Below the pieces are notes generated by a model. The model saw nothing but the letters and a program-made list of their open reading frames with translations. It was not told the DNA's origin and ran no database searches. Made by a program: the position numbers and the translations under genes. DNA of 64,000 bases from Blastococcus sp. Marseille-P5729 (GTDB taxonomy: Bacteria > Actinomycetota > Actinomycetes > Mycobacteriales > Antricoccaceae): the NCBI RefSeq assembly GCF_900292035.1, contig NZ_OMPO01000002.1, forward strand, positions 372,001 through 436,000, written 5' to 3'. Below, piece after piece: positions 56,969 to 62,807 of the stretch; positions within the stretch are counted from its first letter, which is position 1; each line of letters begins with the position of its first letter.

Positions 56969-57058
56969 GGTCTCTACCTCCGGATCGGGGTTGCAGCTGG
57001 ACTGTGCCAGATCGGGCCGACGGATTCCCAGTTGTCCACAAGGCATCCGGAACGAGGC

Positions 57059-59428
57059 TTACAGCTTCTCCATCGCTCCGGAGGCGTAGCGCAGCATCAG
57101 CCACTTCGGCGGCCCGTCGCCGAAGTCGACCTCGACCTGCTGGCGGTCGCCCTCGCCGCGACTGCCGACGACCTTTCCCATGCCGAACGAATCATGCGTG
57201 ACGCGGTCACCGACCTCCAGCACCAGCAACGGAGCCGGCTTCTTCGCGCCGCGCAGGCCGCCGCGGCTGAGCCCGACTCCTCCCCCGGCGCCGCCGGTCG
57301 CGCCGTAGGTCGTGCCCCGGCCCACCGGCTTGCGGTCGTGGATCGAGCTGATCGACGAGGCGTGCGACCAGTCGATCAGCTCGTCGGGCACCTCGTCGAG
57401 GAACCGGGAGGGCGGGTTGTACGCCGGCTGGCCCCACTGGCCGCGCACCACCGACCGGGTGAGGAAGAGCTTGCGCTGCGCACGGGTGAGCCCGACGTAG
57501 GCCAGGCGCCGCTCCTCCTCGAGCTCCTTGGGCTCGCCCAGCGAACGCAGGTGTGGGAACAGACCGTCCTCCATGCCCGAGAGGAACACGACGGGGAACT
57601 CCAGGCCCTTGGCGGTGTGCAGCGTCATCAGCGTGACGAATGCCTTGTCGGCCGGGTCGGCGTCCGCGTCGGGCAGCTGGTCGGCGTCGGCGACCAGGCT
57701 GACCCGCTCGAGGAACTCGTCGATGCTTCCCTCGGGGTGCAGCACCTCGAACTCGGCGGCCACCGCGACGAGCTCGTTGAGGTTGTCGACCCGGCTGGCA
57801 TCCTGCGGGTCCTCGCTGTCCTCGAGCTCGGCGACATAGCCGGTGCGGGTGAGAATCGCCTCGAGCACCGCCGACGGTCCCGCGCCGGACTCGGCCAGCC
57901 CCCGCAGCCCGTCGATGAGCTCGTTGAACTCCCCGATCAGCTTGACGGCGCGCGGGTTGATCGCCGGCGCCTCCTCGACCCGGTAGAGCGCGTCGGTGAA
58001 GCTGATCCGCTCCCGCGACGACAGCGCCTCGATGCACGCCTCGGCGCGGTCGCCGATGCCGCGCTTGGGGGTGTTCAGGATGCGGCGCAGGCTGACGACG
58101 TCCGCCGGGTTGTTCAGGTACTTCAGGTAGGCCAACGCGTCGCGGATCTCCTTGCGCTCGTAGAAGCGCACCCCGCCGACGACCTTGTAGGGCAGCCCGA
58201 CCCGGATGAAGATCTCCTCGAACACGCGGCTGGAGTTGTTGGTGCGGTAGAAGATCGCGATGTCGTCGAGACGGTGCGTGCCCGCGTCGGTGATCTCGTC
58301 GATCTGCCGCGCGATCCATGCCGCCTCGTCGTGCTCGTTCTCGGCGACATAGCCGTCGATCCGCTCGCCGTCGCCGGCGTCGCTCCACAGGCGCTTGACG
58401 CGCCTATCGACGTTCTTCGAAATGACCGAGTTGGCGGCAGTCAGGATGTTCTGGGTGGAGCGGTAGTTCTGCTCGAGCAGGACGGTGCGCGCCTGCGGGT
58501 AGTCGCGCTCGAATTCCTCGATATTGCGGATGGTCGCGCCGCGGAAGGCGTAGATGGACTGGTCGGCATCGCCGACCACACACAGCTCAGCCGGCGGGAT
58601 GTCGTCCTCGCCGGCGCCGACGAGCTCGCGGATCAGCATGTACTGGGCGTGATTGGTGTCCTGGTACTCATCGACCAGGATGTGCCGGAACCGGCGCCGG
58701 TAGTGCTCGGCGGTGGCCGGGAAGGCCTGCAGCAGGAACACCGTCTGCATGATGAGGTCGTCGAAGTCGAAGGCGTTCGCCTCGCGCAGCCGGCGCTGAT
58801 AGAGCTCGTACGCCTCAGCCTCGACCTTCTGCACCGAGGACTCGGCCTTGGCCTTGAAGGTCTCGTAGTCGATCAGCTCGTTCTTGGCGTTGCCGACGGT
58901 CGCCAGCAGTCGGCGCGGCGGGAAGCGCTTGGGATCGATGTCGAGATCGCGCGCCACCAAGGTCATCAGTCGCTGCGCGTCGGCCTGGTCATAGATGGTG
59001 AAGGACGACTTCATCCCGATCGTCTTGGCCTCGGCCCGAAGAATCCGCACGCACGCCGAGTGGAAGGTCGACACCCACATCGACCGGGCGCGGCCGCCGA
59101 CCATGGCGGCCACCCGTTCCTTCATCTCACCCGCGGCCTTGTTGGTGAAGGTGATCGCCAGGATCGAGCCCGGTGAGACCTGGCGACGATCGAGCAGCCA
59201 GGCGATTCGGCGGGTGAGCACGCGGGTCTTGCCGGACCCGGCTCCGGCGACGACCAGCAGCGGCCCGCCGGAGTGGACCACGGCCTCCCGCTGCTGCGGG
59301 TTGAGGTCGATCAGCAGCGGGTCGTCGGGATCGATCCGCTCTGCCGGCGCCTGCGCGGGGACGGCGAACAACGCCTCGTCGGGCTGCTCGGGGGGAAGCT
59401 GCGGATCGGGGATCTGTGAGTCGGACAT
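57059..59428 (-). CDS. pcrA: UvrD/PcrA-type ATP-dependent DNA helicase
   Basis: 789 residues, superfamily 1A 3'-5' helicase for nucleotide excision repair and clearing of RecA or RNA polymerase. Q-motif LNPQQREAVVHSGGPLLVVA, Walker A AGAGSGKTRVLTRRI, motif Ia AITFTNKAAGEMKERV, motif II HILVDEYQDTNHAQY, motif III VGDADQSIYAFRGA, motif IV LLEQNYRSTQNIL, motif V TLHTAKGLEFPVVFLSGMEDG and motif VI RLAYVGLTRAQRKL. The Tudor-like C-terminal domain ends GDRVTHDSFGMGKVVGSRG. I chose ATG 59428 since the earlier frame to 59755 has no similarity. Divergent from the chorismate mutase leader, as in M. tuberculosis uvrD1/Rv0948c. Confidence 0.95.
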   Translation of the reverse strand: MSDSQIPDPQLPPEQPDEALFAVPAQAPAERIDPDDPLLIDLNPQQREAVVHSGGPLLVVAGAGSGKTRVLTRRIAWLLDRRQVSPGSILAITFTNKAAGEMKERVAAMVGGRARSMWVSTFHSACVRILRAEAKTIGMKSSFTIYDQADAQRLMTLVARDLDIDPKRFPPRRLLATVGNAKNELIDYETFKAKAESSVQKVEAEAYELYQRRLREANAFDFDDLIMQTVFLLQAFPATAEHYRRRFRHILVDEYQDTNHAQYMLIRELVGAGEDDIPPAELCVVGDADQSIYAFRGATIRNIEEFERDYPQARTVLLEQNYRSTQNILTAANSVISKNVDRRVKRLWSDAGDGERIDGYVAENEHDEAAWIARQIDEITDAGTHRLDDIAIFYRTNNSSRVFEEIFIRVGLPYKVVGGVRFYERKEIRDALAYLKYLNNPADVVSLRRILNTPKRGIGDRAEACIEALSSRERISFTDALYRVEEAPAINPRAVKLIGEFNELIDGLRGLAESGAGPSAVLEAILTRTGYVAELEDSEDPQDASRVDNLNELVAVAAEFEVLHPEGSIDEFLERVSLVADADQLPDADADPADKAFVTLMTLHTAKGLEFPVVFLSGMEDGLFPHLRSLGEPKELEEERRLAYVGLTRAQRKLFLTRSVVRGQWGQPAYNPPSRFLDEVPDELIDWSHASSISSIHDRKPVGRGTTYGATGGAGGGVGLSRGGLRGAKKPAPLLVLEVGDRVTHDSFGMGKVVGSRGEGDRQQVEVDFGDGPPKWLMLRYASGAMEKL

Positions 59429-59473
59429 CGCCCGTTCAGGGTACGCGGGTGTGCCGACGCGCAGCGGCTCGGT

Positions 59474-59479
59474 TATGCT
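59474..59479 (+). promoter_or_regulatory. -10 box of a leaderless transcript for the leader peptide
   Basis: TATGCT ends seven bases before GTG 59486, so transcription would begin at or next to the start codon, giving a leaderless mRNA as is common in actinobacteria. The -35 is not clear. Confidence 0.6.
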
Positions 59480-59485
59480 GGCGAC

Positions 59486-59563
59486 GTGACTGCAACGGGC
59501 ACCCGCTTCGTTACGGGCTTCTTCTATGGGACGCCGGCCACGGCTCCTGGTGAAGAGGTCTAG
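59486..59563 (+). CDS. Phe/Tyr-containing leader peptide of a chorismate mutase attenuator
   Basis: A 25-codon frame (GTG 59486, TAG 59561-59563) coding VTATGTRFVTGFFYGTPATA then PGEEV. It has three Phe codons and a Tyr codon within eleven positions (RF-VTG-FFY), too short for any general protein. A strong hairpin (59590-59615) lies between it and the chorismate mutase start, and a -10 box lies at the right distance for a leaderless mRNA. When charged tRNA-Phe is scarce, stalling on the FFY codons would change downstream folding. A similar leader (aroR) upstream of the chorismate mutase gene is, as I recall, reported in Corynebacterium glutamicum. Confidence 0.7.
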   Translation: MTATGTRFVTGFFYGTPATAPGEEV

Positions 59564-59589
59564 TCGGCGTACCGCCCCGACCCCCACCC

Positions 59590-59615
59590 AGCGCTCTGGC
59601 CACGGCCAGGGCGCT
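59590..59615 (+). promoter_or_regulatory. Terminator-like hairpin of the attenuator
   Basis: AGCGCTCTGGC (59590-59600) pairs with GCCAGGGCGCT (59605-59615), 11 base pairs with one G-U, loop of four, then CGTTCGTTCC. It lies 27 bases after the leader stop and 50 before the chorismate mutase start. The competing antiterminator partner was not resolved by eye. Confidence 0.6.
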
Positions 59616-59665
59616 CGTTCGTTCCTGGGGCGTGGTGAGAGCATCTCGATCGAAGGACTGACAAC

Positions 59666-59989
59666 ATGACCACGACCACGCTCCCGACCGCCACCGAGCC
59701 GGCCGCCTCCCGGACCCGTCCCACCCGGGTGGTCACCGAGGAGGAGGCCGCGCACAAGATCACCGTGCTGCGCGACCAGATCGACGCGGTCGACGACGCC
59801 ATCATCCGGCTCATCGACGAGCGCGTCGCGCTCTCCCGCAATGTCGGGGCCCTCCGCGCCGCCGTCGGCGGACCCCGCCTCTCGCTGTCGCGCGAGAACC
59901 AGATCCTCGCCAAGTTCGCTCGCCGGCTCGGCGCGCAGGGCACTCCGCTGGCGATGCTGCTGCTGAAGATCTCCCGCGGGCGCATGTAG
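59666..59989 (+). CDS. Chorismate mutase, AroQ type
   Basis: 107 residues. After a disordered Thr/Ala/Pro-rich start (1-22) comes an AroQ helical bundle: ITVLRDQIDAVDDAIIRLID, RVALSRNVGALRAAVGG, SRENQILAKFARRLG. The early Arg and the R-V-A-L-S segment form part of the active site. It turns chorismate into prephenate, the branch to Phe and Tyr. M. tuberculosis has the same gene (Rv0948c) beside uvrD1, where activity needs binding to DAHP synthase; the same dependence is plausible here because the domain is of the same short kind. Preceded by the leader and attenuator. Confidence 0.93.
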   Translation: MTTTTLPTATEPAASRTRPTRVVTEEEAAHKITVLRDQIDAVDDAIIRLIDERVALSRNVGALRAAVGGPRLSLSRENQILAKFARRLGAQGTPLAMLLLKISRGRM

Positions 59990-60078
59990 CGACGCCGCCC
60001 GGGTGCCCGGCGGAACGGGCCGGTGGCTAACCTACGTCGCAGAGGACGCCAGCCCGAACGACCCGCCGAGGTGCCCCG

Positions 60079-61154
60079 ATGTCTGCCCAGCCGCCGAGTG
60101 ACGACTCGCAGCTCCCCCAGCTGCGGCGATTCCGCTTCGACCCCGACAGCGGGAAGGTGCCCCGCGAGGTCGATCCGGCAGCGGCGCAGCCGCAGAGCCC
60201 AGCCACCGAGCCGGCTACCGATCGGGACGGCACTCGCGAGATCCCGGCATCCCACCGCGCGGACGCCGACGAACTGCGAGACGGCGACGCTGGAGCGTTC
60301 GATGAGCCCGAGCGGCACGGCGACACCGGGCTCGACGATCCGGACCGGGTGCTGGCGGACGCCGATCGCGCCTTGGACCGGACCGGACACCAGCGCACCT
60401 CGACCGCCGTCACCGGGGCCGGCCGAACCACCCGCCGCCCGCCACCCCCGGGCCCGAGCTCTCCCGGCCCGACCGGCACGACCGTCCCGGACACTCCGTT
60501 GCGTCCGGGGCGCCCGGCCGCCCGCCGTCCGGCCCGCCGAGCGCCCCGGCATCGAGCGATGCACCCCATCGGCCGTCGTCCGTGCCGTGGCTGATCGCCG
60601 GCATCGCCGCCGCAGCGGTGATCGCGCTGGTGGTCTGGCTGGTCACCAGCTCTGGCTCGGACGACGAGGCCGACGCGGACGGCTCCGGACCGCAGAGCGG
60701 CACCGCCACCGAGGCCGTCGAGACCGGCGCGTGGGCCGACGGGGTGTGCCAGCAGCTGACCGCCTACGAGACCGCCGCGATGCCTCTGAAGGCCGAGGCC
60801 ACGAAGGCCGCGGCCGCCACGGGTGGCGCGTTCTCGGCCGAGGCCGCCAAGGACATGCAGCGCGAAGCCGGTGAGCTGCTGTCCGATCTGAGCACGACCC
60901 TCGGCGAGCTCCCGGCACCGTCCGACGAGTCGGTCGCCGCGGTGCACGATCAGCTGCTGACGGACGTCGCCGAGACTGCGGACTCGACCCAGGCCAGCGG
61001 CAACGGCGCCATCGGCTCTCCGCGGGACACCGCCGCGGACGTCGTCACCTCACTGGGAGTGCCGGTCGAGGCCTTCCTCACCGCGACCGACGAGCTCACC
61101 GACGAGCAGTTCGAACCCATCGCGGCGACCGCGTCCTGCTCGGGTCTGCTCTAG
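60079..61154 (+). CDS. Single-pass membrane protein, frame-broken in a C-rich stretch
   Basis: Two frames appear to be one gene. From ATG 60079 a polar cytoplasmic part (RRFRFDPDSGKVPREVDP and acidic runs) goes on to about 60430, where the G/C-rich stretch CCACCCCCGGGCCC occurs. A second frame, -1 relative to it, then continues smoothly with Pro/Ser-rich residues, a membrane helix (PWLIAGIAAAAVIALVVWLV) and an extracellular helical domain up to 61154 (CQQLTAYETAAMPL; last Cys in TASCSGLL). The first frame alone would end at 60594 with Arg-rich nonsense. A one-base deletion in the C run is the simplest cause. No family is recognised; a soluble two-Cys extracellular domain is the main feature. 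Confidence 0.65.
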
Positions 61155-61163
61155 GTGCTCGGG

Positions 61164-61202
61164 TCTGCTCTAGGACCGGGGACCCCGGTCTAGGACCGGG
61201 GG
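61164..61202. repeat. Direct and inverted repeat at a convergent junction
   Basis: TCTAGGACCGGGG occurs twice and ACCGGGG-ACCCCGGT forms a short palindrome between them, just beyond the membrane-protein stop and before the guaA stop. Confidence 0.55.
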
Positions 61203-61209
61203 ACGCTGG

Positions 61210-62807
<1,598 letters not shown>

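Follow-up and report, generated by a model that had tools for sequence, protein, structure and literature searches.

Proposed regulation of aroQ by its upstream region

The locus examined here raises the question of whether the short reading frame and the hairpin ahead of aroQ, which encodes an intracellular AroQ-type chorismate mutase, form a regulatory device and, if so, of what kind. We addressed this in the window (the whole stretch of 64,000 nucleotides analysed) and by comparison with other genomes. The arrangement had been proposed, in a sequence-only reading, to represent ribosome-mediated attenuation governed by Phe-tRNA charging. Conservation of the leader and hairpin, together with a covarying anti-terminator, supports this proposal. 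Judged from these comparisons, the element is very probably (with a probability of about 0.9) a transcription attenuator of the trp/pheA type, mediated by the ribosome and acting on aroQ.

Organization of the locus

The features identified are collected in Table 1. The individual parts named in the earlier reading are all present: a -10 box immediately before a 25-codon GTG-started frame containing RF...FFY, an 11 bp hairpin, an AroQ gene and a neighbouring uvrD gene. Six nucleotides (GGCGAC) separate TATGCT from the GTG at 59486, and the hairpin includes one G-U pair. The nearest solved relatives of the window AroQ are the Mycobacterium tuberculosis Rv0948c chorismate mutase structures (for example, 2qbv; E 1.6e-12). 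Since pcrA/uvrD is divergent, no upstream gene on the forward strand needs the terminator. The terminator lies between the sole intergenic promoter seen and aroQ and thus has only the leader available to terminate. Downstream of aroQ are an ORF of 171 amino acids (60079-60594) with no Pfam match and, following it, a second ORF (60582-61154).

Table 1. Features of the aroQ leader region in the window
Feature	Position	Strand	Basis
pcrA/uvrD helicase gene, divergent	57059-59428	-	ORF identified as PcrA/UvrD
-10 promoter box TATGCT	59474-59479	+	Sequence; spacing of 6-7 nt kept in relatives
Leader ORF, GTG start, 25 codons, TAG stop (59561-59563): MTATGTRFVTGFFYGTPATAPGEEV	59486-59563	+	Sequence
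Sensing codons Phe8 (59507-59509), Phe12 (59519-59521), Phe13 (59522-59524), Tyr14 (59525-59527)	59507-59527	+	
Protector hairpin 1:2 within the leader ORF, 59528-59536 with 59541-59548	59528-59548	+	Homologous helix covaries in alignment A1
Anti-terminator strand (element A), CCGGCCACGG; partner 59594-59601, 7 of 8 positions paired	59534-59543	+	
Terminator hairpin 3:4, arms AGCGCUCUGGC (59590-59600) and GCCAGGGCGCU (59605-59615), loop CACG	59590-59615	+	Homologous helix covaries
Weak, interrupted U-tract 3' of the terminator hairpin, CGUUCGUUCC	59616-59625	+	Sequence
Shine-Dalgarno-like GAAGGA ahead of aroQ (putative)	59652-59657	+	Inferred from sequence
aroQ, AroQ-type chorismate mutase (107 aa), predicted regulated gene	59666-59989	+	Pfam CM_2, E 5.9e-11

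Taken by itself, the window hairpin is unexceptional (folding z = -1.46; 13 of 200 shuffled sequences fold equally well), and a search of the region 57000-62000 with 4227 Rfam models gave no match at E values up to 1. A single-sequence z of only -1.46 would suit a chance pairing of an unremarkable ORF with a GC-rich hairpin in a GC-rich genome. The order-wide and class-wide conservation with covariation described below already refutes this explanation, to which we attach a negligible probability. The U-tract of the window is not clean. In relatives, U-runs are found at the same place: UUUUUU in locus L003, UUUUU in L004, and others in L009, L024 and further loci.

Conservation of the leader upstream of AroQ

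An AroQ protein search of 200 genomes from the order to which the window belongs gave 181 positives, and the upstream DNA was read for 90 loci, which span 16 families. Of these 90 upstream regions, 85, distributed over 15 families, contain a leader ORF that includes an aromatic block, and the device is the same throughout: a leaderless-type start, the aromatic block, a stop codon, a hairpin and, often, a U-run. Both Phe and Tyr lie within a four-codon sensing block in 82 of the 85 leaders, and the sensing codons vary synonymously between them (TTT/TTC, TAC/TAT). Start codons are mostly GTG. Of the 79 leaders scored, 71 have a -10-like NANNNT whose end lies 6-7 nt upstream of the start codon. 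This spacing agrees well with a leaderless start, and transcription in the window would then begin at about GTG59486.

The five exceptions (L051-L054 and L058) all belong to two genera, g38 and g41, of family f7 and have no leader upstream of AroQ; here the leader seems to have been lost or replaced. Weak model matches elsewhere in the g38 and g41 genomes (L227-L230) precede neither AroQ nor a DAHP synthase gene. Another genus of the same family, g9, is probably Mycobacterium, since its AroQ matches the Rv0948c structures at 137 bits. In named genomes (Geodermatophilaceae, Micromonosporaceae and others) the element lies upstream of AroQ at 78 of 80 loci; of the two exceptions, L149 has hardly any sequence upstream. 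Leader types and contigs shared with these named genomes assign f16 to Geodermatophilaceae and f15 to Micromonosporaceae.

The wide conservation suggested by the sequence-only reading is therefore borne out, both by the 85 leaders in 15 families and by class-wide matches to a covariance model (see below). By the same reading, attenuation would be supported if the FFY codons and the hairpin, and not the spacer, were conserved. This pattern holds across the 15 families with one refinement: the codons after FFY are conserved too, because they form hairpin 1:2. The commonest form of the leader is xRFFYGYRxPVPV, with FFYGTPATAP or FFYRxxATAP in the family of the window.

The GYRxPVP that commonly follows FFY is strikingly conserved, as it would be if the small ORF encoded a functional micropeptide and the peptide itself were the conserved entity. 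Its codons, commonly GGG UAC CGG nnn CCG GUG CCC, make both hairpin 1:2 and the anti-terminator strand. Moreover, the peptide differs in the family of the window (GTPATAP), yet a comparable hairpin is found at the same place, and it differs again in f15g39 (GTDRPSRRSS), where the anti-terminator pairing is kept. Retention of hairpin and pairing where the peptide differs indicates a constraint on the RNA rather than on the peptide, and we regard a micropeptide as highly improbable.

Three mutually exclusive helices

The mechanism needs an anti-terminator, which was absent from the earlier reading and was found by covariation and folding. Element A, which comprises the loop and the 3' half of hairpin 1:2, has a partner in fixed register, the 5' arm of the terminator (pairing 2:3). 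Lowest-energy automatic picking of terminators often took wrong, larger hairpins, and terminator arms were therefore anchored by motif. The motif was picked by eye, which could bias the count towards this register; an alignment made with MAFFT (A1; 36 sequences, of which three f1 rows are misplaced) gave the same result.

In A1, 87.5% of positions in the 1:2 and terminator helices are paired, compared with 31-58% in slid registers. Double changes occur at 9 pairs of these helices, against 4.2 in shuffled alignments (reached in 0 of 500), and amount to 28 double-change cells against 8.8. For the anti-terminator helix pairing is 81.5%, slid versions reaching at most 67%, and the covariation score is 0.289 compared with 0.159 (sd 0.019) after shuffling (again 0 of 500). 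Kinship alone can lift sequences above shuffles in the absence of any structure, and for this reason we also swapped anti-terminator partners. Exchange across families lowered the count from 107.0 pairs to 95.1 (sd 3.1; p at most 0.002, 20 draws), and exchange across genera lowered it from 295.5 to 258.4 (sd 5.1).

Examples of compensation within the anti-terminator are GGAGUCCGG/CCGGGCUCC in f15g17, AUCGUCCG/CGGGCGAU in f15g39, UUGUCCGG/CCGGGCAA in f15g56 and GGACUCCGG/CCGGAGUCC in f14. In f14 and f7, the terminator 5' arm carries a base that is bulged against its own 3' arm and is paired in the anti-terminator; in f14 this base is an A, paired only there. Comparison of raw duplex energies between families is a blunt measure (Wilcoxon p 0.048), because GC-rich arms pair with almost anything, and in families f2, f3, f8, f9, f11 and f13 native duplex energies were not clearly better than those with foreign partners. 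Counting pairs in a fixed register is clearer. On this comparative evidence, hairpin 1:2, the anti-terminator and the terminator are three helices that would exclude one another in the manner of an attenuator.

The same leader and the same stalling could also act through a translational output (exposure of the aroQ ribosome site) or a Rho-dependent one (exposure of a Rho site) instead of intrinsic termination; an output of this sort has been reported for the mycobacterial Cys leaders. The U-tracts are imperfect in the window and in mycobacterium-like relatives, and mycobacterial cys leaders without terminators are known (PMC1262725), both of which would fit such an output. We nevertheless consider it improbable, since a strong GC hairpin is present in most families, in many of them with a U-run after it, and since the partner of the anti-terminator is the 5' arm of this hairpin and not the aroQ ribosome site.

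Ribosome position and folding

The ribosome was assumed to reach 15 nt forward from the first P-site base. When the A site holds the second Phe codon, the front edge of the ribosome stops immediately short of element A. In 81 of the 85 leaders the stop codon is 11-17 nt past element A, so that a ribosome at the stop would mask element A wholly or partly.

Masked folds were calculated for 12 leaders, including that of the window. In all 12, a stall at the second Phe codon allowed 7-10 anti-terminator base pairs to form before synthesis of the terminator 3' arm. The complete leader folded into the terminator when the ribosome sat at the stop codon and also when there was none. A stall at Tyr gave fewer anti-terminator pairs in every leader (3-7, compared with 7-10 for Phe). 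With the 3' arm included, equilibrium favoured the terminator in 8 of the 12 folds despite the Phe-stalled ribosome, and in 3 of the 12 leaders the anti-terminator appeared transiently without any ribosome. These two results imply that kinetics must contribute to the switch, which is the usual assumption for attenuators.

Proposed mechanism

The leader, its sensing codons, the three exclusive helices and the ribosome geometry are established by comparison of sequences. They supply what characterizes an attenuator of the trp/pheA type at the sequence level: a leader with Phe and Tyr codons, a terminator and an anti-terminator exclusive with it. From this arrangement we infer that initiation is leaderless, that transcription does terminate and that the device responds to Phe. 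RNA polymerase would initiate at GTG59486, give or take a base, and the ribosome would load onto the leaderless 5' end. With ample charging of Phe-tRNA, and perhaps to a smaller extent of Tyr-tRNA, the ribosome would reach the stop codon, where it would mask element A or leave it shut in hairpin 1:2. With element A unavailable, the terminator hairpin would form and transcription would end. When Phe-tRNA is scarce, the ribosome would stall at Phe12/Phe13. Its front edge would then cover the 5' strand of hairpin 1:2 and free element A to pair with the 5' arm of the terminator, and the polymerase would read on into aroQ. Chorismate mutase would most likely be switched on, therefore, only when charged Phe-tRNA is short.

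Distribution and DAHP synthase leaders

The covariance model R1 finds a single credible copy in the genome of the window, at this locus (E 3.9e-7; the next match has E 0.048), and no such leader was found at the DAHP synthase (PF01474) and prephenate dehydratase loci of this genome. Over 297 genomes of the class, 29 of the 30 best matches lie before AroQ. Among these 29 are matches in large Streptomyces-like genomes (f33), whose leaders include MLTQTTFLFTYGNRPTGCHGRAA; at L145, from the named Streptomyces sp. MspMP-M5, the leader is MFQQQSFAFTYGTGPSGCHGRAA. The remaining one of the best 30, L203, precedes a DAHP synthase gene (PF00793, E 4.4e-81), and its leader adds Trp: MQRNFWRFYGYRPDTPVACRALR.

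DAHP synthase is also found downstream of L207-L213, L215-L219 and L221-L225 (72-100% identical to the L213 protein by tblastn), and in most of these leaders codons for Phe, Trp and Tyr all occur within the block or close to it. Trp-adding blocks include NFWRFYGYRP, WSFWYGDGPV and RWFGYF (in L203, L207-L213, L224, L225 (f31), L217, L219 and L221 (f28)). In L218 (f43) the block, FRFFSYG, has Phe and Tyr only. A terminator follows both the Trp-adding leaders and L218. The DAHP synthase leaders L222, L223, L234 (f41), L215 and L216 (f52) have Phe and Tyr with no Trp in the block; those of f41 and f52 are TYFFGHLPGAP, SYFSYRHLPGAP and TYFYGYRPGV.

Most weak R1 matches are false: among 20 that were inspected, nearly all with E of about 1e-4 or weaker, only two (L234 and L239) precede a target gene. 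A strong match, L214 (E 2.6e-8), is probably false as well; here a coding sequence ends in NSFGFGGHN ahead of a terminator and so resembles an aromatic block with its hairpin. A false match at this E value means that the R1 model alone is no proof.

DAHP synthase, the entry enzyme of the pathway, is apparently tuned to several aromatic amino acids, and the codon content of the leader tends to follow the place of the enzyme in the pathway. On balance, we favour the view that one widespread actinobacterial RNA scaffold serves as an exchangeable aromatic-amino-acid sensor, with Phe and Tyr only before chorismate mutase and often also Trp before DAHP synthase. The scaffold may be one of the main means by which transcription of the Phe/Tyr branch is controlled, mycobacterium-like genomes included. 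The attenuator would supply a control mechanism for an Rv0948c-related chorismate mutase in a large bacterial group that includes antibiotic producers. Particular codons and base pairs follow from the model as sites at which mutation should affect regulation, and through them Phe/Tyr flux might be adjusted in actinobacterial production strains.

Comparison with known systems

The pheL-pheA system of Escherichia coli has a leader initiated from a Shine-Dalgarno sequence, a target gene in which chorismate mutase is fused to prephenate dehydratase, and an unrelated sequence, and differs in these respects from the element described here. The two share Phe leader codons, transcription termination (predicted in the window) and a target containing chorismate mutase (CM-PDT; PMC11802643).

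Surveys of attenuation in actinobacteria describe Trp, Leu, Ile/Val, Cys and other leaders, and make no mention of one for chorismate mutase (PMC1262725, PMC8079986, PMC5784534). The leaderless leaders of Streptomyces lividans (trpL, leuL, ilvL, thrL and metL; none of the eight leaders in the survey is of the Phe/Tyr type; PMC8079986), the leaderless leader peptide of M. tuberculosis ilvB1 (PMC13236596) and the mycobacterial Cys sORFs resemble the arrangement predicted for the window: the leader ORF begins at the 5' end or close to it and lies ahead of an amino-acid gene. A terminator is present, as predicted here, in trpL1, ilvL and ilvB1. All of these concern other amino acids.

The nearest known system in the literature searched is aroR/aroF of Corynebacterium glutamicum, which the sequence-only reading had named as a related device. 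It is indeed an actinobacterial Phe/Tyr leader peptide attached to an aromatic-pathway gene, and is described as a ribosome-mediated attenuator responding to Phe limitation (Neshat et al. 2014, as cited in PMC11802643). As far as PMC4046766 and PMC11802643 describe the locus, aroR precedes aroF, a DAHP synthase gene (cg1129), and not a chorismate mutase gene as in the window. Its block is Phe-Tyr-Phe, and the comparison concerns leader and target. A leader peptide for chorismate mutase or Rv0948c was not found in the literature searched, the coverage of which is incomplete. Within that literature, the element would be a classical attenuator that is new for a chorismate mutase gene. Its informative parts are the covarying structure, the breadth of its distribution and the Trp-containing variant ahead of DAHP synthase.
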